In this document: one piece after another, positions 14,588-57,190 of the stretch
Position numbering within the stretch: the first letter of the stretch is position 1
How the letters are laid out: every line of letters starts with the position of its first letter
Source: Kineosporia corallincola
Lineage (GTDB): Bacteria; Actinomycetota; Actinomycetes; Actinomycetales; Kineosporiaceae
Assembly (NCBI RefSeq): GCF_018499875.1
Contig: NZ_JAHBAY010000005.1
Coordinates: 1-64,000 of the forward strand
Reading direction: 5' to 3'
Length of the DNA: 64,000 bases
Translations under genes and position numbers: made by a program
Notes under the pieces: generated by a model
Databases searched by the model: none
The model's input: only the letters and a program-made list of their open reading frames with translations
Told to the model about the DNA's origin: nothing

Positions 14588-16408
14588 GTGAACATACGCA
14601 AGGGCACGACAGCCGCCGTCACCGGCGCGCTGATCACCATCGCGCCCCTCACGGCAGCCGGAACGGCCCAGGCCGCCCCGGTCTCGTACACGACCACCCC
14701 GGAAGGCGTGACGCACGAGGAGAATCCGCGCGTTCCGGAGGGCGCGGTGTGGACCGAGGTCTATTTCCCCTCCAGCGACGGCAGTGGCGTGGAGCTGCAC
14801 GCCGACGTCCTGCGTCCGGCCAACCTGTCGGCCAGCGCCAAGACACCCGTGATCCTCTCCGTGGGGCCCTATTTCGGGCACGCCGGTCAGACCGAGCCGG
14901 AGGACTGGACCGAGACCGGACCCTCCAACCGCTTCGAGGACTTCACCAGCGGCGCTGACCTCTTCGCCAACGGTTACACCTTCGTCATGGCCGACCTGCG
15001 CGGCTTCGGCGGCAGCACCGGCTGCCTCGACGGTACCGGCCCCGGCGAGCAGGCCGACGTGAAGGCCGCCATCCAGTGGTCGGCGTCGCAGTCGTGGTCC
15101 ACCGGCAAGGTCGGGCTGTACGGCAAGTCCTACGACGCCGGCACCGGCCTGGTCGGCAACGACCTGAAACTGCCCGCCCTGAAGGCGGTCGTGGCCCAGG
15201 AGCCGACGTGGAACAAGTACAACTATCTGTTCAGCAACGGGGTGCCGCGCCCCAACGCCACCTCCTCCCCCGCGGCCTACAACTCCATCGCCACCATCGC
15301 CCCGCTGGCTGACGACACCGCGCACTACCAGGCCAATGCGACCTACGAGGAGAGTCACCCCGAGTGCCTCTCCGACAACCTCTCCGACAGCTACAACCCG
15401 GACGAGGACTCGGCCTTCTGGCAGGAACGTAACCTCGCGGCCAAGGCGGCGGGAACGAGCACGCCACTGTTCGTCACCCAGGGCTTCATCGAGAACAACA
15501 CCAAGCCCGAGGACATGGAGCTGTACCTCGACAACCACCAGGGTGTGGAACGGGGGTGGCTGGGGCAGTGGCAGCACGTGCGCGGCAACGAAACCGACGA
15601 CGAGGGCAACCTGCTGCAGGGCCGGGCCGGGTTCTTCGACGAGGTCATGCGCTTCTACGACCAGTACCTCAAGGGTGTCCGGCCGACCGTGGAGGACCCT
15701 GCCTACGCCATTGAGGACAGCACCGGCGCCTGGCGCGCCCAGAGCACCTGGCCGGTCTCCGACTCGTCACTGACGACGTCCCTGCCGGACGGCGAGTACC
15801 TGGACGACGGCGCCGCCTCCACTCTGAGCGCCACGACCACGACCGAACGAAGGGCAGCCCAGCAGCAGGACGACGAGCACGCCGTCGACCCGGCCCCGCC
15901 GGCCGGCCGCAGCGAGTCGACCCTGCAGGCGGAAGACACCACCAGCAGCTACTTCCGCTACTCCACGCCGGCGTCCACGCGTGTGCGGATCACCGCCACC
16001 CCGCGCATCACGCTCGACGCCAGTGCCCAGGGCAACGTCATGGTGCGTCTGTGGGACGTCGCCGCCGACGGGAGCGCCGTGATGTTCGACGAGAACGTCT
16101 CCCTCATCGAGCAGGCGGGTCAGGTCTCCCTCGACCTGAAGTCGACCGACTGGACGCTCGAGGCGGGGCACCAGCTCGGCGTCCAGATCGGCACGATCGA
16201 CAGCACGAGCTGGCTGGACACACCCAGCGACGCCACCATCCAGGTCACCGGCACCAAGCTCGATCTGGAGCTGCAGAACCCGGCGTCCGACGTGCCGACC
16301 CAGGGTGACCGCTCGCCGTACCTGGACACCTATCTCACCCAGTACACCCGCACCCTGACCGACGTCGACGAGGGCACCTTCTCCCTCGACGCGGACAGCG
16401 AGTCCTGA
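14588..16408 (+). CDS. Secreted S15/CocE-family hydrolase (X-Pro dipeptidyl-peptidase-like)
   Basis: This 606-aa exported alpha/beta hydrolase has a signal peptide (about 1-30, ending AAGTAQAAP), an S15 catalytic domain with the nucleophile in GLYGKSYDAG (Ser181) and the His in GQWQHVRGN (His330), and a C-terminal jelly-roll XPDAP_C-like domain (about 440-600, TRVRITATPRITLDA ... GHQLGVQIG). The acid position, usually Asp in GFxDxNT, reads GFIENNTKP, so Glu may replace it. Predicted substrates are peptides with Pro at position 2 or related esters/amides. The GTG at 14588 follows a perfect AGGAGG with a 4-nt spacer. A 19-bp hairpin follows the gene. Confidence 0.9.
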   Translation: MNIRKGTTAAVTGALITIAPLTAAGTAQAAPVSYTTTPEGVTHEENPRVPEGAVWTEVYFPSSDGSGVELHADVLRPANLSASAKTPVILSVGPYFGHAGQTEPEDWTETGPSNRFEDFTSGADLFANGYTFVMADLRGFGGSTGCLDGTGPGEQADVKAAIQWSASQSWSTGKVGLYGKSYDAGTGLVGNDLKLPALKAVVAQEPTWNKYNYLFSNGVPRPNATSSPAAYNSIATIAPLADDTAHYQANATYEESHPECLSDNLSDSYNPDEDSAFWQERNLAAKAAGTSTPLFVTQGFIENNTKPEDMELYLDNHQGVERGWLGQWQHVRGNETDDEGNLLQGRAGFFDEVMRFYDQYLKGVRPTVEDPAYAIEDSTGAWRAQSTWPVSDSSLTTSLPDGEYLDDGAASTLSATTTTERRAAQQQDDEHAVDPAPPAGRSESTLQAEDTTSSYFRYSTPASTRVRITATPRITLDASAQGNVMVRLWDVAADGSAVMFDENVSLIEQAGQVSLDLKSTDWTLEAGHQLGVQIGTIDSTSWLDTPSDATIQVTGTKLDLELQNPASDVPTQGDRSPYLDTYLTQYTRTLTDVDEGTFSLDADSES

Positions 16409-24194: not shown

Positions 24195-25091
24195 TCATGT
24201 CGACTCGATGTGCCCGACTCCGGACTCCGCTCCGGTCAGCGTGAGCGGCCAGGCCGCGGCGTCCACCCCGAGCGCCCACCGCAGGTAGGCCAGGGTGGTG
24301 CGGCGCAGCAGGCCGAGCACGGCCGGGTTCTCGTCGGTGGTCTCGGCGGCCTCGTACCCGGGGATGCCGCCCAGCGAGTGCTCCGCGCCGAACAGCGTCA
24401 GCAGGCTCTTCGGGCCGGGGCTGAGACGGTAGGCGTCGGTCATCCAGTCCGGGCCGCGCAGGCTCAGCGGGGAGTCGTCGCGGTCGCCGGCGACGATCAG
24501 TGCGGGGGCCCGCATCCCGGTGAAATCCGGGTTGATGAACGGGAACCGCTCAGCCGACTCCGGGGTGAGGTCCGCGCCGCTGCCGGCGGTGGCCAGGAGC
24601 ACGCCGGCCCTCACGCGCGGGTCGGACAGGTCCTCGGCGTCCCCGGTTCGGCGGTCGGGAACCCGCAGCCCGAGCAGGCTTCCGGCACTCTGCCCGCCGA
24701 AGGAGTGCCCGGCCACCGCGATCCGGCCGGGATCCAGACGCCCGCGCAGGCCGGGGACGGCGGCCTCGAGGCGGCCGAGATCGTCGAGCACACGCCGCAG
24801 GTCGTCGACCCGCGAGCGCCAGATGCCGGGCACGCGCGGGTCGCCGGGTTCCAGGCCGACGGTGCGGGAATCGAGGAAAGTGGGCTGCACGACGGCGAAT
24901 CCGTGGGCCGCCCAGTAGTCGGTCAGCGGGTGGTAGGCGTGGTGCGAGGAGCCGTAGCCGTGAGCGAACAGCACCACGGGCAGCCCGCCGCCGTGCACCG
25001 GCGCGGACACCCGCACCTGGAGGTCGGTGCCGCGGCCGGGCGCGGGGACCACCAGGGGCTCGACCGAAACGACAGGGATGCTCTCGGGCAT
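24195..25091 (-). CDS. Alpha/beta hydrolase (chlorophyllase/PAF-acetylhydrolase-like)
   Basis: This 298-aa cytosolic hydrolase has the strand PVVLFAHGYGSSHHAYHPL (oxyanion HG), the nucleophile elbow AVAGHSFGGQSAG, the acid region LIVAGDRDDSPL and a C-terminal His near LFGAEHSLGGIPG. Substrate not predictable. ATG 25091 has GGAGAGG upstream; the open frame continues upstream but is antisense to the TetR gene and not coding. The divergent TetR gene and two TetR-like operators lie within 95 bp. A promoter (TTGTCA, 17-nt spacer, TATCTT on the minus strand) is overlapped by those operators, so this gene is very probably repressed by that TetR protein. Confidence 0.9.
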   Translation of the reverse strand: MPESIPVVSVEPLVVPAPGRGTDLQVRVSAPVHGGGLPVVLFAHGYGSSHHAYHPLTDYWAAHGFAVVQPTFLDSRTVGLEPGDPRVPGIWRSRVDDLRRVLDDLGRLEAAVPGLRGRLDPGRIAVAGHSFGGQSAGSLLGLRVPDRRTGDAEDLSDPRVRAGVLLATAGSGADLTPESAERFPFINPDFTGMRAPALIVAGDRDDSPLSLRGPDWMTDAYRLSPGPKSLLTLFGAEHSLGGIPGYEAAETTDENPAVLGLLRRTTLAYLRWALGVDAAAWPLTLTGAESGVGHIEST

Positions 25092-25119
25092 GACAAGGCC
25101 TCTCCGGCAACGAGTATGA

Positions 25120-25171
25120 AAACGGGACGTCGTCCCGTTTCGAAGATATGGGACAGCGTCCCGGTTGACAA
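25120..25171 (-). promoter_or_regulatory. Promoter of the hydrolase gene with two TetR-type operators
   Basis: On the minus strand, TTGTCA (25166-25171) and TATCTT (25143-25148) are separated by exactly 17 nt, a good primary-sigma promoter. Operator 1 is AAACGGGACG-T-CGTCCCGTTT (25120-25140), a perfect 10-bp-arm palindrome downstream of the -10. Operator 2 is GGGAC-agc-GTCCC (25150-25162), sitting inside the spacer. The shared GGGAC/GTCCC core suggests one repressor binds both, and a third half site GTCCC lies next to the TetR start. Confidence 0.75.
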
Positions 25172-25184
25172 GTAGGCTGTCCCG

Positions 25185-25766
25185 GTGAGCCCGGACCAGA
25201 CCGCGCGCCCCCGCCGGGCCGACGCGCGCCGTAATCAGGAGGCCCTGCTCGCGGCGGCGGCCGGCGTCTTCGTGAGCTCGGGCGTCGAGGCGCCGATCCG
25301 CGAGATCGCGGCCCGGGCGGGCGTGGGCACGGCCACCATCTACCGGCACTTCCCCACCCGGGCCGACCTGATCGTCGCGGTCTACCGGCACCAGGTGGAG
25401 GCGCTGGCGCTGTCCGGCCCGCAATTGAGGACGACGAACACCGGCCCGCACGCGGCGCTGGCCGAATGGCTCGGCGAGTTCGTGGATTTCGTGATCACGA
25501 AGCAGGGCCTGCCGGCGGTGCTCCAGTCCGCCGACCCCTGCTACGACCCGCTGCACACCTACTTCGTGGAGCGACTGGAACCGGTGTGCCGCGAGCTGCT
25601 CGACGCCGCGGCCGAGGCCGGCGAGATCGCCCCCGGCCAGGACGCCTACGAGCTGATGCGGGGCATCGGCAGCCTGTGCGCCGGGGCGGGCACGAACCGG
25701 CGCTACGACGCCCGGCACCTGGTCGGGCTGCTGGTGGCGGGGCTACGGGTGGAGCCCCGCCGGTAG
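25185..25766 (+). CDS. TetR-family repressor
   Basis: This 193-aa repressor has an N-terminal HTH (ALLAAAAGVFVSSGVEAPIR, EIAARAGVGTATIYRHFPTR) and a C-terminal helical ligand domain. The GTG at 25185 lies directly after the operator region, with little leader. Divergent placement and the two GGGAC/GTCCC palindromes indicate that it controls both itself and the alpha/beta hydrolase; the inducer may be that enzyme's substrate. A long terminator hairpin follows. Confidence 0.92.
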   Translation: MSPDQTARPRRADARRNQEALLAAAAGVFVSSGVEAPIREIAARAGVGTATIYRHFPTRADLIVAVYRHQVEALALSGPQLRTTNTGPHAALAEWLGEFVDFVITKQGLPAVLQSADPCYDPLHTYFVERLEPVCRELLDAAAEAGEIAPGQDAYELMRGIGSLCAGAGTNRRYDARHLVGLLVAGLRVEPRR

Positions 25767-44036: not shown

Positions 44037-44065
44037 TTGATGGCATGCATGTGCGGGCTTAGGAT
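44037..44065 (+). promoter_or_regulatory. Candidate promoter of the radical SAM gene
   Basis: TTGATG (44037-44042), a 17-nt spacer and TAGGAT (44060-44065) fit a primary-sigma promoter, placed 25 nt before the start codon of the radical SAM gene at 44091. The spacer contains the palindrome GCATGC. Confidence 0.5.
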
Positions 44066-44090: not shown

Positions 44091-46007
44091 ATGCGCATCA
44101 CGCTGGTCAATATGCCCTGGCACGTACTCGACTGGCCGTCCATGGCCCTGGCAACGCTTGACGGAACGCTCAGCAACCTCGGGCACCAGGTGAGCCACCT
44201 GTACGAGAACATCCGGTTTCCCGAATATCTCCTGACGGCCAGCGGTGGCCGGATCACTCCGGATGACTACATCACGGTGAGTCTGTCCGGTTATGAAGAT
44301 GGTGTCGGGGAGTGGATATTCAGCTCAGCGCTGTCGTCGCCGGGTCGGCATGAGGACGCGTATGTGCGGTGGTTGCGCGACAGGGAATACGGCCCCGTCG
44401 CCCAGGCCACCGGCATGCACCGCCTGGTTCCGGAGTACATCCGGCAGGCAGCCGACCGCGTCCTGGCCGGGAAACCTGATCTGGTCGGTCTGACCAGTAC
44501 CTTCGAGCAGAACGTACCGTCACTCGCGCTGGCGACCGAGCTGAAACGCCGCCAGCCCGCTCTCCCGGTAGTGATGGGCGGCGCGAACTGTGACGGCGTC
44601 ATGGGCGCGGCCCTGCACCGAAACTTCACCTGCCTCGACTACGTGGTCCGCGGCGAGGGTGAACAGCCGGTGACCGAGCTGATGGAGGCGCTGGAGGGGC
44701 GGCGCGATCTGGCCGATGTCAGCAGTCTGTGCTGGCGCGACCGCGACGGCCGCTCGGTCGAGAACCCCTACCGGCCCTCTCTGACCCCCGGCGACCAGAT
44801 TCCGGTGCCGCATCTGCGACCGTACTTCGCCGACATGGAGACCTCGCCCGTCCGGAACTGGGTCGGCCGCCTCCATCAGCGACTGGAGTCCTCCCGCGGA
44901 TGCTGGTGGGGCGAGAAGCGCCAGTGCACCTTCTGCGGGCTCAACGGTGGTGCCATGAAGTACCGGTCCAAGCCGCCCGAGCGTGTCTGGGCCGAGATCG
45001 AGCAGGCAGTACACGAGCACCAGGTGCTCGACATCGCCTTCACCGACAACATTCTCGATCCCGCATACCTGGACTCCTTACTCCCCCGCGTTTCCGCTGC
45101 GGGATGGGACCTGAGAATCTTCTACGAGGTCAAGTCCAATCTCAGACCGGAGCAGATGCGCGCACTGTCCGCCCCCGGCGTCACCGTGGTGCAGCCCGGC
45201 ATCGAGAACCTCTCCTCCGGACCGCTGGAGCTCATGGACAAGGGCACCACCGGCGCCGCCCAGGTGCGGGCCCTGCGGTTGTTCCTTCAGCACGGCATCT
45301 TCCCGGGCTGGAACTATCTGTACGGCTTCCCTGGTGAGCAGTGGCACCAGGACTACGCCGACGTCGTGCGGCAGATGCCCGCCCTGGTCCATCTCCCCCC
45401 GCCCAGTCATGCCATCCGCTTTTCCCTGGAACGCTTTTCGCCGCTGTTCGACCGGCCTGAGCTGGGCATCGACGACCCACGGCGTGCCCTTGGCTGGTAC
45501 CGGCTCGTCTATGACCTACCGGACGATGAACTTGTCGATCTGGCCTATATTTTCGAGTACCAGCCACGGGGTATCAGCGAGGCGCAGGCCAGGGAACTGC
45601 ATTCGGCCGTGGATCAGTGGAAAGCCGGTTACGAGCACTCCAGCCTGTCGTTGCGGGCCTGCGGCGACAGCCTGACCATCAGGGACCGGAGGGCCGGCTG
45701 GGCATCCGCCGACCACGTGCTGAGGAACGATGAGGCAATCGTTTACAGCACTCTCGAAAGGCATCTCAGTCTTCCGGGTCTGAAGGCAGCCCTGCGGGCC
45801 GGCGGGTGCGACATACCCGAGAAAGAACTGTCCGTCCTTCTCGGCGACTGGCTCGAAGCCGGTCTGGTGTATCGCGACGTGTTCCGGCGGCAGGAGAACT
45901 GGGTGGCCCTCGCGGTTCCCGCCGATCCGCGCCGTCGCAACGGCGCGTCGGACATCGGCCCACCGACCGCCGACGAGGAGAGTCTTAATGCCTTCGCCAC
46001 CGGATGA
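44091..46007 (+). CDS. RiPP maturation radical SAM enzyme with B12-binding-like domain (TIGR03975 type)
   Basis: This 638-aa enzyme has an N-terminal cobalamin-binding-like Rossmann region (about 1-200; DLVGLTSTFEQNVPSLALAT, LPVVMGGANCDGVMGAALHR, CLDYVVRGEGEQPVTELMEA). A radical SAM domain follows, with Cys271, Cys279 and Cys282 in RGCWWGEKRQCTFCGLNG. This CX7CX2C spacing is the hallmark of the RiPP maturation radical SAM protein 1 family rather than the standard CX3CX2C. Further radical SAM features are AFTDNILDP and GIENLSSGPLELMDKGTTG. Such enzymes install C-methyl groups or other changes on peptide precursors. ATG 44091 has GAGGAG upstream. The 3' end overlaps the DUF5825-like gene by 20 bp, and a precursor-like ORF follows, making a compact operon. 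Confidence 0.92.
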   Translation: MRITLVNMPWHVLDWPSMALATLDGTLSNLGHQVSHLYENIRFPEYLLTASGGRITPDDYITVSLSGYEDGVGEWIFSSALSSPGRHEDAYVRWLRDREYGPVAQATGMHRLVPEYIRQAADRVLAGKPDLVGLTSTFEQNVPSLALATELKRRQPALPVVMGGANCDGVMGAALHRNFTCLDYVVRGEGEQPVTELMEALEGRRDLADVSSLCWRDRDGRSVENPYRPSLTPGDQIPVPHLRPYFADMETSPVRNWVGRLHQRLESSRGCWWGEKRQCTFCGLNGGAMKYRSKPPERVWAEIEQAVHEHQVLDIAFTDNILDPAYLDSLLPRVSAAGWDLRIFYEVKSNLRPEQMRALSAPGVTVVQPGIENLSSGPLELMDKGTTGAAQVRALRLFLQHGIFPGWNYLYGFPGEQWHQDYADVVRQMPALVHLPPPSHAIRFSLERFSPLFDRPELGIDDPRRALGWYRLVYDLPDDELVDLAYIFEYQPRGISEAQARELHSAVDQWKAGYEHSSLSLRACGDSLTIRDRRAGWASADHVLRNDEAIVYSTLERHLSLPGLKAALRAGGCDIPEKELSVLLGDWLEAGLVYRDVFRRQENWVALAVPADPRRRNGASDIGPPTADEESLNAFATG

Positions 46008-46791
46008 TGCGGCGCCGCACCGACGACGCCCTCTCCCGCTCGCGCACACGCCCCGTCTGCTACGGGCGCGGGGCGCGGGGCGCGTGGTCGCGCCGGCTCT
46101 GCCGTTCACCGAACCTGAGCCCTTGCTGGCCGAACTCGCTCGCATCGCAGCTGTCCTACCAGGCCCGTTGCCGGACGAGATCACCATCGACTCCCGGGCC
46201 TCCGACCTGGCCAGGATCGCCGGTGTGCTCGGCCGAGTGGGCCCGGCCGGCCTCACGATCACCGTTCGCACACCCACCGTGCCTTTGAACGCCGGCATCC
46301 CGGCCGTCGTGGGTGTACTGGCTCACGCGCAGGTTGCTGCCCTGGAGATCACCAGGGAGCTCGTGGTCGGCGGCCCCCTCGCGGTCGCCTGGACCGAGCT
46401 GGCCAAGGCCGCGCTCTCGCACGGGTTACCCCTGCGTTGGTCGGGGGCAGCCGATTCGCTTCTGCTGGAACACTTCACGCACCTGGTGCCGCCGCAACGT
46501 TCACATGACTGGCGCCGGGCCTGGCGTTACGGAGCCCTGACCTGGCGTCGTGGACCTGGATTCGCTCTCGTGAACGACGATCGGAACGAGCAGGACCGGC
46601 GTCGTCATACTGTCGATCTGTTGCTGCTGACCGGCATTTTCGGCCCTGACCTGGACCGGCCAGCTCAGACCTCCGCAGATCCGGGCCCCGTCATCGACGA
46701 GCTGATCCACCTCGGCCTGGCAGCTCGGCTACCGAACGGAGTCGTGTGGTTGCCCTACCGAATGCGCCGCTTTCCGGCAGCCCCTCCCTGA
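45988..46791 (+). CDS. DUF5825-like partner protein of the RiPP radical SAM enzyme
   Basis: This 267-aa protein resembles DUF5825 members commonly found beside RiPP radical SAM methyltransferases. It has EPLLAELARIAAVLPGPLPD, SDLARIAGVLGRVGPAGLTI and TELAKAALSHGLPLRWSGAA, a segment WRYGALTWRRGPGFALVNDD, and a C-terminal part (RRRHTVDLLLLTGIFG ... PVIDELIHLGLAARL) that looks like a winged or PqqD-like recognition region. No catalytic motif or membrane helix is seen. ATG 45988 is inside the end of the radical SAM gene (20-bp overlap). It may bind the precursor or assist the enzyme. Family name from memory of the pattern; moderate certainty. Confidence 0.75.
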   Translation: MPSPPDDAAPHRRRPLPLAHTPRLLRARGAGRVVAPALPFTEPEPLLAELARIAAVLPGPLPDEITIDSRASDLARIAGVLGRVGPAGLTITVRTPTVPLNAGIPAVVGVLAHAQVAALEITRELVVGGPLAVAWTELAKAALSHGLPLRWSGAADSLLLEHFTHLVPPQRSHDWRRAWRYGALTWRRGPGFALVNDDRNEQDRRRHTVDLLLLTGIFGPDLDRPAQTSADPGPVIDELIHLGLAARLPNGVVWLPYRMRRFPAAPP

Positions 46792-46871
46792 AGCGACCGG
46801 ATCCCGTTGATGAAGTGCAACTGGTCGCCTATGGTCGTCATCAGTCCTACACCGCTCCCCCGGAGGTTCAC

Positions 46872-47009
46872 ATGCCGAAGCTGCCCGAACACCCCGACCG
46901 GACCGAAGACAAAGCCGCCCCCTCAGCGGTTCTGCAGACGACGTCACTCGTCTCCTCATCCACCCAGGACTCGCACTTCGGTTTCGATTACGGTCTGACC
47001 GCCCGATAG
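46872..47009 (+). CDS. Candidate RiPP precursor peptide (45 aa)
   Basis: This short gene starts at ATG 46872 behind GGAGG at good spacing, 80 nt after the DUF5825-like gene on the same strand. The peptide has a charged leader-like half (MPKLPEHPDRTEDKAAPSAV) and a polar/aromatic C-terminal half (LQTTSLVSSS then TQDSHFGFDYGLTAR) that would be the core. Aromatic and Ser/Thr residues are plausible sites for radical SAM chemistry. A 15-bp hairpin follows the stop by 20 nt. It belongs to no precursor family I recognise. Position, length and ribosome site are the evidence for it. Confidence 0.7.
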   Translation: MPKLPEHPDRTEDKAAPSAVLQTTSLVSSSTQDSHFGFDYGLTAR

Positions 47010-47028
47010 ACGAGGGCGTAGCCCGATG

Positions 47029-47075
47029 AAGTGGTTCAGAGAGCTGACTGCCAAAGCTCGCTCTCTGAACCACTT
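47029..47075 (+). terminator. Terminator of the RiPP-like operon
   Basis: AAGTGGTTCAGAGAG (47029-47043) pairs perfectly with CTCTCTGAACCACTT (47061-47075) around a 17-nt loop, 20 nt after the precursor stop codon. Confidence 0.75.
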
Positions 47076-47293
47076 CTCCGGCAGACCGTCTGGACACCCA
47101 GCGCCCGGAGCACTGCCCCGAGGCGGTCAGGTCCGGGCGTCATCGCAAGCCTTCGCCAAGTGGGCGCCGTTCGCGGATCACGGGCCCACTGCTACGGTCC
47201 GGCCGAGGAGTTGCGGGCGTTGCGCGAGACCACGGCCGACACCGCCGCCATGCTGGGACACCCCGGCTGATCCGGTCCGCTCGGATTCTCGGC

Positions 47294-47400
47294 TCAGAGC
47301 CGGAACCGTCCCACGGCCGTCCGCAGTTCGGCCGCCACGCGGTCCAGCTGCTCGACCGCGACGTCGGCCTCGGCCGGGGTCGCGGTGGTGCTGCGGGTGC
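47294..47400 (-). pseudogene. 3' fragment of a methyl-accepting chemotaxis receptor gene
   Basis: About 107 bp on the minus strand encode the receptor C-terminus ([20 protein letters not shown] then RFRL stop) almost exactly as in the full receptor gene at 49272-50930, including the same stop and the downstream CAGAGCCGGAACCGTCCCAC at DNA level. Nothing of the receptor remains upstream. It is the scar of a duplication or recombination. The preceding 200 bp (47080-47290) also look decayed, with a short high-GC3 frame ending ALRETTADTAAMLGHPG. Confidence 0.8.
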
Positions 47401-49142: not shown

Positions 49143-49271
49143 ACCGCCACGCTAGGAGCACGACCCCGGCACGAGCTTGGACACCCGCGTCAGATTCCCG
49201 GGACATCCGCGCCATCGACCGGTGCGATGTGCCGGGCCCAGCCGGCAGGGACCTGGGCCCGGCCCACAGTC

Positions 49272-50930
49272 TCAGAGCCGGAACCGTCCCACCGCCGTGC
49301 GCAGCTCGGCCGCGACCCGGTCCAGCTGCTCGACGGCGGCGTCGGCCTCGGTCAGGGTCGCCGTGGTGCTGCGGGTGGCCTCGGCGACCGAGGCGATGTT
49401 GCCGGCGATCCCGGTCGCTCCCTGCGCGGCGTCACCGACGCTGCGGCTCATCGTCGTGGTGGTGGCGCTCTGCTCCTCGACGGCCGCGGCGATGGTGGTC
49501 TGGAAGTCGTTGATCTGCGCGATGACGGTGCCGATCTCGCTGATCGCGGTCACCGCCTCACCGGTGTCGGCCTGGATCGCCTCGACCCGGTTCGCGATGT
49601 CCTCGGTGGCCCGCGCCGTCTCCTGGGCCAGCTGCTTGACCTCCTCGGCCACCACCGCGAAGCCCTTGCCGGCGTCCCCCGCCCGGGCCGCCTCGATGGT
49701 CGCGTTCAGCGCCAGCAGGTTGGTCTGCTCGGCGATCTGGGTGATCGCCTTCACCACGTTGCCGATCTCGGCCGAGGACTCCCCCAGCTTGCTGATGGTC
49801 GCGTTGGTGCTCTGGGCCCGGGCCACGGCCGTGCCGGCCACGTCCGCCGCCAGCTGCGCGTTGCGGGCGATCTCGCCGATCGAGGCGCCCATCTCCTCGG
49901 CGCCGGCCGCGAGCGTCTGCACGTTCGCCGACACGTCCTCGGACGACGAGCTGACCACCCCGGCCCGCTCGTTGGCCAGCCGGGCCCCCTCCCCGATCCG
50001 GCTGGTCACCGCACTCAGCTGGGCCGCACTGCCGGACACCGTCTCGGCCCCGCTGACCAGGGTGGACAGCATGCCGCGGAAGGCCCGCACCGCCTCGTTC
50101 GCCATCGCGGCCATCCGGCCCAGCTCGTCCCGCGAGGAGATCTCCGCCTCCTGGGTCAGGTCGCCCTCGGCCAGCCGGGCCAGCGACCCGGACAGTGCCT
50201 GCACCTGGCGCAGCAGCAGCCGCAGCACGAACAGAGCCAGGCCGGCGGCGAGCAGGAGCCCGATCAGCAGCGAGGCGACGACCGCGATCCGGGCGCTGCG
50301 GAAGTCGGCGGCGGCCTCCGCCGTGGCCGCCTGCGAGGCCGTGGTCTCCAGCGTGGCCAGGGCCACCACGCCCTCGTTCAGCTGGGTCTCCGCGTCACCG
50401 AAGGCCGTTCCCAGGTCGTCGGGCATCTCGAACCCGTCCGGCGGGGCCTCCCCGAAGATGATCACGTCACGCAACGTCCGGTAGGTCTGCGCGGCCGTGG
50501 CGACCTGCTCGATCTGTGCGTCCCGCCCGCCGCCGGTGCCGGCGACCTTCTCGTACTTCGCCAGCGCTGCGTCCAGCGCGGTGTCGGCGGCCTCGGCCGT
50601 CGGCAGCCAGGTGGCCTTCGCCGACTTCTGGTCGCCCTGCGCGCCCGTCACCTCGTAGAGGAACTGGGCCCGGTACATCTGGCTGAGCTGATGGTTGAGC
50701 TCGTTCAGTGCCTCGACGCCGGCCATCCGCTGTTCCTGGAGGGCGTGGATCCGGGTGTTCATCGTGCTCAGCCGCTGGAGCGAGGTGGCGCCGACCCCCA
50801 CGGCGACCAGCGCCATCACCAGGATCGGGGCCAGGATCTTGGCCTTGACACTGCGGTCCCTCAGCCATCCCGCCCGGGGTGCGGGGGACGATGACGCGGA
50901 ACGGGCAGCGACGTTCGGGGCGAGCGACAC
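49272..50930 (-). CDS. Methyl-accepting chemotaxis protein
   Basis: This 552-aa transmembrane receptor has TM1 ([20 protein letters not shown], about 30-49) and an extracellular four-helix-bundle sensor (about 50-215, with [20 protein letters not shown] and [16 protein letters not shown]). TM2 ([20 protein letters not shown]) and a HAMP domain ([20 protein letters not shown]) follow. A long cytoplasmic signalling helix bundle has the conserved hairpin ([35 protein letters not shown]). It interacts with CheW/CheA at the membrane and implies that the organism has a chemotaxis system elsewhere. Its last about 36 codons are duplicated at 47294-47400. Confidence 0.95.
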
Positions 50931-57133: not shown

Positions 57134-57190
57134 TCCGCTCCGTCCAGACGAGAACCTTCCCGCAGAGGAGAAACATGCACCCGAGAAGGC
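56963..57190 (+). repeat. Direct repeat, left copy
   Basis: The 3' end of the anti-sigma-like gene, the intergenic leader and the subtilase ribosome site recur at about 60449-60703. Shared runs include GGGGAGTCCCGTG, CAGGTGTACATCAGCGTCTT, ATGCCCTGATCCGCTCCGTC and GAGGAGAAACAT. Identity is about 80-85% by eye. The pair brackets the subtilase gene. Confidence 0.85.

Follow-up and report, generated by a model that had tools for sequence, protein, structure and literature searches.

A compact candidate gene cluster for a modified peptide in Kineosporia corallincola, with a B12 radical SAM enzyme, a DUF5825 protein and a putative precursor of 45 residues

We analyzed the first 64,000 nucleotides (nt) of contig NZ_JAHBAY010000005.1 of the actinomycete Kineosporia corallincola (assembly GCF_018499875.1), referred to below as the window, for a small gene set that may direct the synthesis of a ribosomally synthesized and post-translationally modified peptide (RiPP). 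It consists of a gene for a B12-binding radical S-adenosylmethionine (SAM) enzyme, a gene for a protein of the DUF5825 family and a short open reading frame (ORF) of 45 amino acids (aa), all on the forward strand and at the positions claimed in an earlier reading made from the DNA letters alone. The main observation of this sequence-only reading is confirmed, and its interpretation is partly supported. The features of the cluster are as follows.

44037..44065, forward strand: promoter-like site P1, TTGATG-N17-TAGGAT, found by eye, 25 nt before the ATG of the enzyme gene
44091..46007, forward strand: gene of the B12-binding radical SAM enzyme, 638 aa (TIGR03975, RiPP maturation radical SAM C-methyltransferase; CX7CX2C)
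45988..46791, forward strand: gene of the DUF5825 protein, 267 aa, presumed peptide-binding partner of the enzyme (PF19142)
46807..46835, forward strand: promoter-like site P2, TTGATG-N17-TATGGT, before the 45-aa ORF; absent from the sequence-only reading
46872..47009, forward strand: candidate precursor peptide, 45 aa (GGAGG ribosome site, P2 in front, position behind the DUF5825 gene)
47023..47081, forward strand: strong hairpin without a T-run, a probable transcription terminator (complementary arms, folding energy)

As evidenced by profile searches, the enzyme belongs to TIGR03975 with a score of 527.9 bits against a curated cut-off of 281.85. Its B12-binding and Radical_SAM domains both exceed the Pfam cut-offs, and the cysteines of C271-x7-C279-x2-C282 are invariant in 21 of the 21 aligned sequences. 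A profile search with the enzyme returned four sequences up to an E value of 0.001, namely TokK, OxsB, a radical SAM core protein and a tryptophan-C2-methyltransferase. The second protein matches PF19142 (DUF5825) with 47.3 bits, the cut-off being 25. Both proteins are of full length, the motifs of the enzyme are intact, and the two genes overlap by 20 nt (45988-46007), exactly as had been claimed. The proposal of a RiPP cluster that combines DUF5825 with a radical SAM enzyme of the B12 type was right. Comparison of the DUF5825 protein with solved structures gave nothing useful, with two sequences up to an E value of 5 and a best value of 0.011 (YihE, 67 positions). Note that in an alignment of 38 DUF5825 proteins, residues ~65-100 (window 45988-46300) form a stretch common to the window and the locus of Allorhizocola rhizosphaerae (L042), with gaps in the other rows. 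The same genome also holds a second TIGR03975 enzyme with 670.7 bits (L023, 8893-10731, reverse strand; contig C3:388940-390724), whose neighbourhood is without DUF5825, the only PF19142 match of the genome being that in the window. A third, weaker TIGR03975 match (C14, 75.8 bits) falls below the cut-off.

The pairing of the two proteins is nearly constant among relatives. We compiled 137 loci, comprising a segment of the window, 15 regions from a sample of the class (L026-L040), 80 from L042-L121, L127 and 40 from a family search (L162-L201). These are not all independent, as L127 repeats L070, while L044 and L175, for example, lie on contigs of equal length, and two further regions without an enzyme match at 1e-30 (L041 and L126) stand outside the set. 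A DUF5825 gene was called where an ORF started between -80 and +300 nt from the stop of the enzyme gene, using a profile that was seeded with L026 and extended over these loci in three rounds. By this measure DUF5825 directly follows the enzyme in 131 of the 137 loci, as it does in the window; the six loci without it are L070 and L127, where a contig breaks, L110, L164, L200 and L034. From the other side, a search with the DUF5825 family in a sample of 394 genomes of the class, which included that of K. corallincola, was positive in 16, and an enzyme relative was present in 15 of the 16 regions fetched, L041 being the one without. An enzyme search of genome contigs yielded 108 relatives, and we retained the 80 best; the family of Actinoplanes liguriensis showed an enzyme relative in 46 of 354 genomes at E < 1e-120, and in family f36 2 of 35 genomes matched at 1e-120, none closer than 46%. 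Among the relatives of K. corallincola itself the cluster occurs only sporadically: of 198 genomes, its own among them, 2 were matched by the DUF5825 protein, and none of the five genomes of the same genus was.

The sequence-only reading had placed a promoter in front of the genes. A scan of the window for promoters of the E. coli type found none, but inspection by eye revealed a site of actinobacterial type, P1. A looser consensus, TTGAYR-N16-18-TABRRT, which follows the actinobacterial type and was formulated when P1 was already known, matches only twice on both strands of the window, at P1 and at P2, where 0.03 matches would be expected (order-2 Markov null, 60 simulations). A narrow pattern covering both sites, TTGATG-N17-TAKGRT, occurs exactly twice in the whole 8.2-Mb genome, again as P1 and P2, and its reversed control does not occur at all. 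As this pattern was drawn up after both sites had been seen, its restriction to them marks the two as an unusual pair, but is no independent test. The strong hairpin claimed behind the genes was borne out, with two arms of 22 nt (47023-47044 and 47060-47081) that are 91% complementary. For positions 47010-47100 the folding energy is -46.9 kcal/mol (z -5.8), a value reached by 0 of 200 shuffled sequences, and the hairpin core (47028-47076) is present in a single copy in the genome. It lacks a T-run and was not listed by a terminator scan.

The 45-aa ORF carries GGAGG five bases before its ATG. Its guanine-plus-cytosine (GC) contents by codon position are 0.62/0.51/0.76, near those of the DUF5825 gene (0.78/0.55/0.75) and in a coding-like order, although 45 codons decide little. 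We assign this ORF as the putative precursor because of its position, its GGAGG site, the genome-unique hairpin and, above all, the P1/P2 pattern: nothing speaks more strongly for the small ORF as a gene of the enzyme set than the two matching promoter-like sites, one before it and one before the operon. Its location, its ribosome site and the promoter-like site that it shares with the enzyme gene favour it as the short precursor of the pair; the sequence motif that we considered is not significant.

A homologous pair of B12 radical SAM enzyme and DUF5825 protein performs C-methylations in clavusporins, according to PMC12257519. This precedent disposes of the notion of a wholly new gene set, and of the claim to a new product it leaves at most a new type of precursor, as the enzyme pair is already described and common in actinomycetes. 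Because of its family and of the clavusporin precedent, the enzyme would be a methylcobalamin-dependent C-methyltransferase. We read the locus, with a probability of roughly two in three, as a RiPP cluster of the DUF5825/B12-radical-SAM kind in which P1 serves the enzyme and the DUF5825 protein, and P2 serves a 45-aa substrate that becomes C-methylated. Judging from the sequence, the cluster is a divergent, probably C-methylating member of this kind. In the proposed mechanism, P1 would drive the genes of the enzyme and the DUF5825 protein, and P2 that of the precursor as a separate short transcript. The DUF5825 protein, a likely peptide-binding partner, would hold the N-terminal part of the peptide, the putative leader, together with the enzyme, which would then use methylcobalamin to pass methyl groups of SAM on to unactivated carbon atoms of the C-terminal half, the putative core, about SAVLQTTSLVSSSTQDSHFGFDYGLTAR. 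The leader would finally be cut off by a protease encoded elsewhere.

Clavusporins are reportedly hydrophobic C-methylated peptides that reduce surface tension and aid the development of Streptomyces. The window resembles clavusporin biosynthesis (Zhang et al. 2025, Nat Chem Biol, doi 10.1038/s41589-025-01882-8) in its B12 radical SAM enzyme with DUF5825, its small candidate precursor and its actinomycete host. In the majority of the loci, 96 of 137, we recognized a precursor with an NDP motif (MQKDIIHNDPL-like), 86 of them by pattern and 10 added by eye. In 83 of these 96 loci the immediate upstream neighbour is a prolyl oligopeptidase (tblastn with the peptidase of L061, E <= 1e-10), which is also present in 2 of the 41 others (L068 and L085). 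According to PMC12951456, the leader of clavusporins is cut off by the prolyl oligopeptidase MpcP. From the adjacent peptidase and from the peptide class we infer that the NDP-type loci are of the clavusporin type. The window differs from them: no NDP-motif precursor was found around its enzyme, no prolyl oligopeptidase of the clavusporin type is adjacent or was detected anywhere in the 64 kb by the same search, its enzyme is ~40-45% identical to theirs and falls on another branch of the tree, and its peptide stands behind DUF5825 with a promoter-like site of its own. To judge by these genes, the window is not clavusporin-like in detail. In L061, the prolyl oligopeptidase and the NDP precursor share one open frame (~3626-6841) with no stop between them.

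In a tree of 64 enzymes, calculated by a quick method with SH-aLRT support and containing some long branches that all lie outside the group concerned here, the window forms a three-species branch of its own with A. liguriensis and Allorhizocola (support 100). This branch lies inside a set of 28 rows (98) and apart from a set of 29 rows (100) that contains all labelled NDP-motif rows. The labelled precursors in the 28-row set mostly start with a KKVxI-like stretch, to which L198 and the trio show no clear fit. The enzyme of A. liguriensis (L070/L126) is 62% and that of Allorhizocola (L042) 57% identical to that of the window, and the DUF5825 proteins of both loci were matched at their N-terminal part. 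The peptides differ in sequence from that of the window. In A. liguriensis, an ORF read as a putative LysR-type regulator ends 62 bp before the enzyme gene, and behind DUF5825 stands an ORF of 42 aa, with a stretch after it that by eye resembles a terminator, on a second contig that is taken to adjoin. In Allorhizocola, the candidate precursor stands in front of the enzyme. Elsewhere among the loci, repeat-unit candidate precursors were seen in Nocardiopsis chromatogenes (L043, ~6724-6921, PMIRSAAT-like units) and in L200 (~4591-4773, SYKV-like units), possibly multi-core substrates of B12 radical SAM enzymes. One may speculate that the three-species branch constitutes a separate RiPP class, in which a DUF5825 protein with an extra stretch towards its N-terminus would enable the B12 radical SAM enzyme to read an unrelated leader, a polar, aromatic-ended peptide (SSSTQDSHFGFDYG) would be modified at positions that no clavusporin has, and the precursor would be made from its own co-regulated promoter. 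This proposal is tentative, and we consider it rather doubtful; if it were true, the substrate would be present in excess over the enzyme in the window.

Several results weigh against our assignment of the 45-aa ORF as the C-methylated substrate. The NDP precursor pattern stands before the enzyme in 85 of the 137 loci and behind DUF5825 in only one, L076 from Streptomyces antioxidans, where the precursor follows DUF5825 at a distance of 54 nt. The two nearest relatives of the window disagree on the position of the precursor. Co-conservation of the short ORF, whose absence the sequence-only reading had named as a refutation, accordingly gives a mixed picture, as A. liguriensis has an ORF behind DUF5825 but Allorhizocola has its candidate before the enzyme, and the peptides show no significant likeness. 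In tblastn searches the 45-aa peptide reached best E values of 0.48 in 19 loci and 0.99 in 80 loci. A motif of the clade seemed by eye to be shared with Allorhizocola (AVLQTTSLVS in the window, AIVRTVKIVS in the relative), but was rejected: this best pair was equalled by 110 of 2000 shuffles, and for the A. liguriensis peptide 1324 of 2000 shuffles were as good. For the clade motif in the 45-aa peptide, 678 of 5000 shuffles did as well, and so did 14 of the 147 short ORFs in the window, a count that may include the 45-aa ORF itself. Searches of the genomes of L042 and L043 with the peptide matched in 0 of 2, which shows little. The looser promoter consensus (sixth base A, C or G) has no site in L070 and L126 of A. 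liguriensis or in L042 of Allorhizocola.

These points would suit a genuine RiPP pair that acts on another substrate, either an overlooked short ORF or a peptide encoded elsewhere, with the 45-aa ORF as an unrelated small gene or a product of chance. Such an arrangement could draw on two short ORFs upstream of the enzyme, starting 482 and 252 nt before it, which have weaker ribosome sites (GAGG and GGAG) and overlap an acetyltransferase gene on the opposite strand. Within 600 nt upstream of the enzyme gene, however, none of the ORFs of 20-90 aa has AGGAGG, GGAGG or AGGAG, and the promoter-like site of the enzyme is repeated only before the 45-aa ORF. A short ORF with an ATG and a strong ribosome site within 350 nt behind DUF5825 was found in 6 of the 131 loci, among them the window and L076, the other four looking unrelated; placement behind DUF5825 does exist in this kind of system, as L076 has a clear NDP-type precursor there. 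With precursors sought around the enzyme gene, we regard another substrate as unlikely and retain the 45-aa peptide as the candidate.

Still less probable is that the two proteins target the peptide's aromatic ladder F-G-F-D-Y, for instance by cross-linking, instead of methylating carbons. Biphenomycin-like (pbs) clusters share with the window a B12 radical SAM enzyme, and theirs, PbsB, joins the two aromatic residues of an FRF motif (PMC12257519); HFGFDYG, with an aromatic residue at every second position, is similar to the FRF and YxY motifs of that source. The same text reports a second B12 radical SAM enzyme plus DUF5825 in the YHxYxY clusters. PbsB, however, needs residues hydroxylated by an MNIO (DUF692, PF05114), again according to PMC12257519, and PF05114 has 0 matches in the K. 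corallincola genome, while the same search was positive in 2 of 14 named control genomes. The enzyme moreover scores as TIGR03975, a family named for C-methyltransferases. A motif of the YHxYxY type, [YF]H[STA][YF]x[YF], was absent from the short ORFs of the 14-kb window segment and of the 136 related loci, so that neither MNIO nor YHxYxY chemistry is supported.

As to the surroundings, the sequence-only reading had noted the lack of a protease, a transporter and a known precursor family. This stands for the prolyl oligopeptidase of the clavusporin type, and a Pfam scan that covered 36 of the 51 called window genes turned up no transporter. The same genes do include peptidases of the S15 (14588-16408), subtilase (57175-60438) and M20 (60810-61955) families, and an alpha/beta hydrolase (24195-25718) matches Hydrolase_4; all four lie more than 10 kb from the cluster, with nothing to link them to it. 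The bin at 44-46 kb has the lowest GC content of 32 bins, 0.650. A further feature lies ~200 nt behind the hairpin, between it and an AraC-type regulator.

47293..47399, reverse strand: 107-bp copy of the 3' end of a chemotaxis-receptor gene (49272-50930), 90.7% identical to 49271-49377

The copy is a probable recombination scar beside the cluster. We consider that the cluster was probably acquired horizontally, and the low GC content and the 107-bp copy fit this without proving it. That the cluster is instead decayed or silent and yields no product would agree with the partial gene copy, the low GC and the unmatched DUF5825 protein in the five genomes of the genus, but is hardly credible in view of two complete proteins, intact enzyme motifs and promoter-like sites and hairpin in place.

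The enzymes of the cluster are ordinary, while the peptide and the arrangement are unusual. B12 radical SAM enzymes methylate carbons that are hard for chemists to reach, and our census points to an association of DUF5825 pairs with candidate precursors of several unlike sorts, the NDP type, the KKVxI-like type, the repeat-unit peptides and the 45-aa peptide of the window. DUF5825 pairs with such unlike precursors are a testable set for the question of how one enzyme pair recognizes different leaders, and the window, with two enzymes and a 45-aa peptide, is a compact case that is easily rebuilt in a laboratory host.

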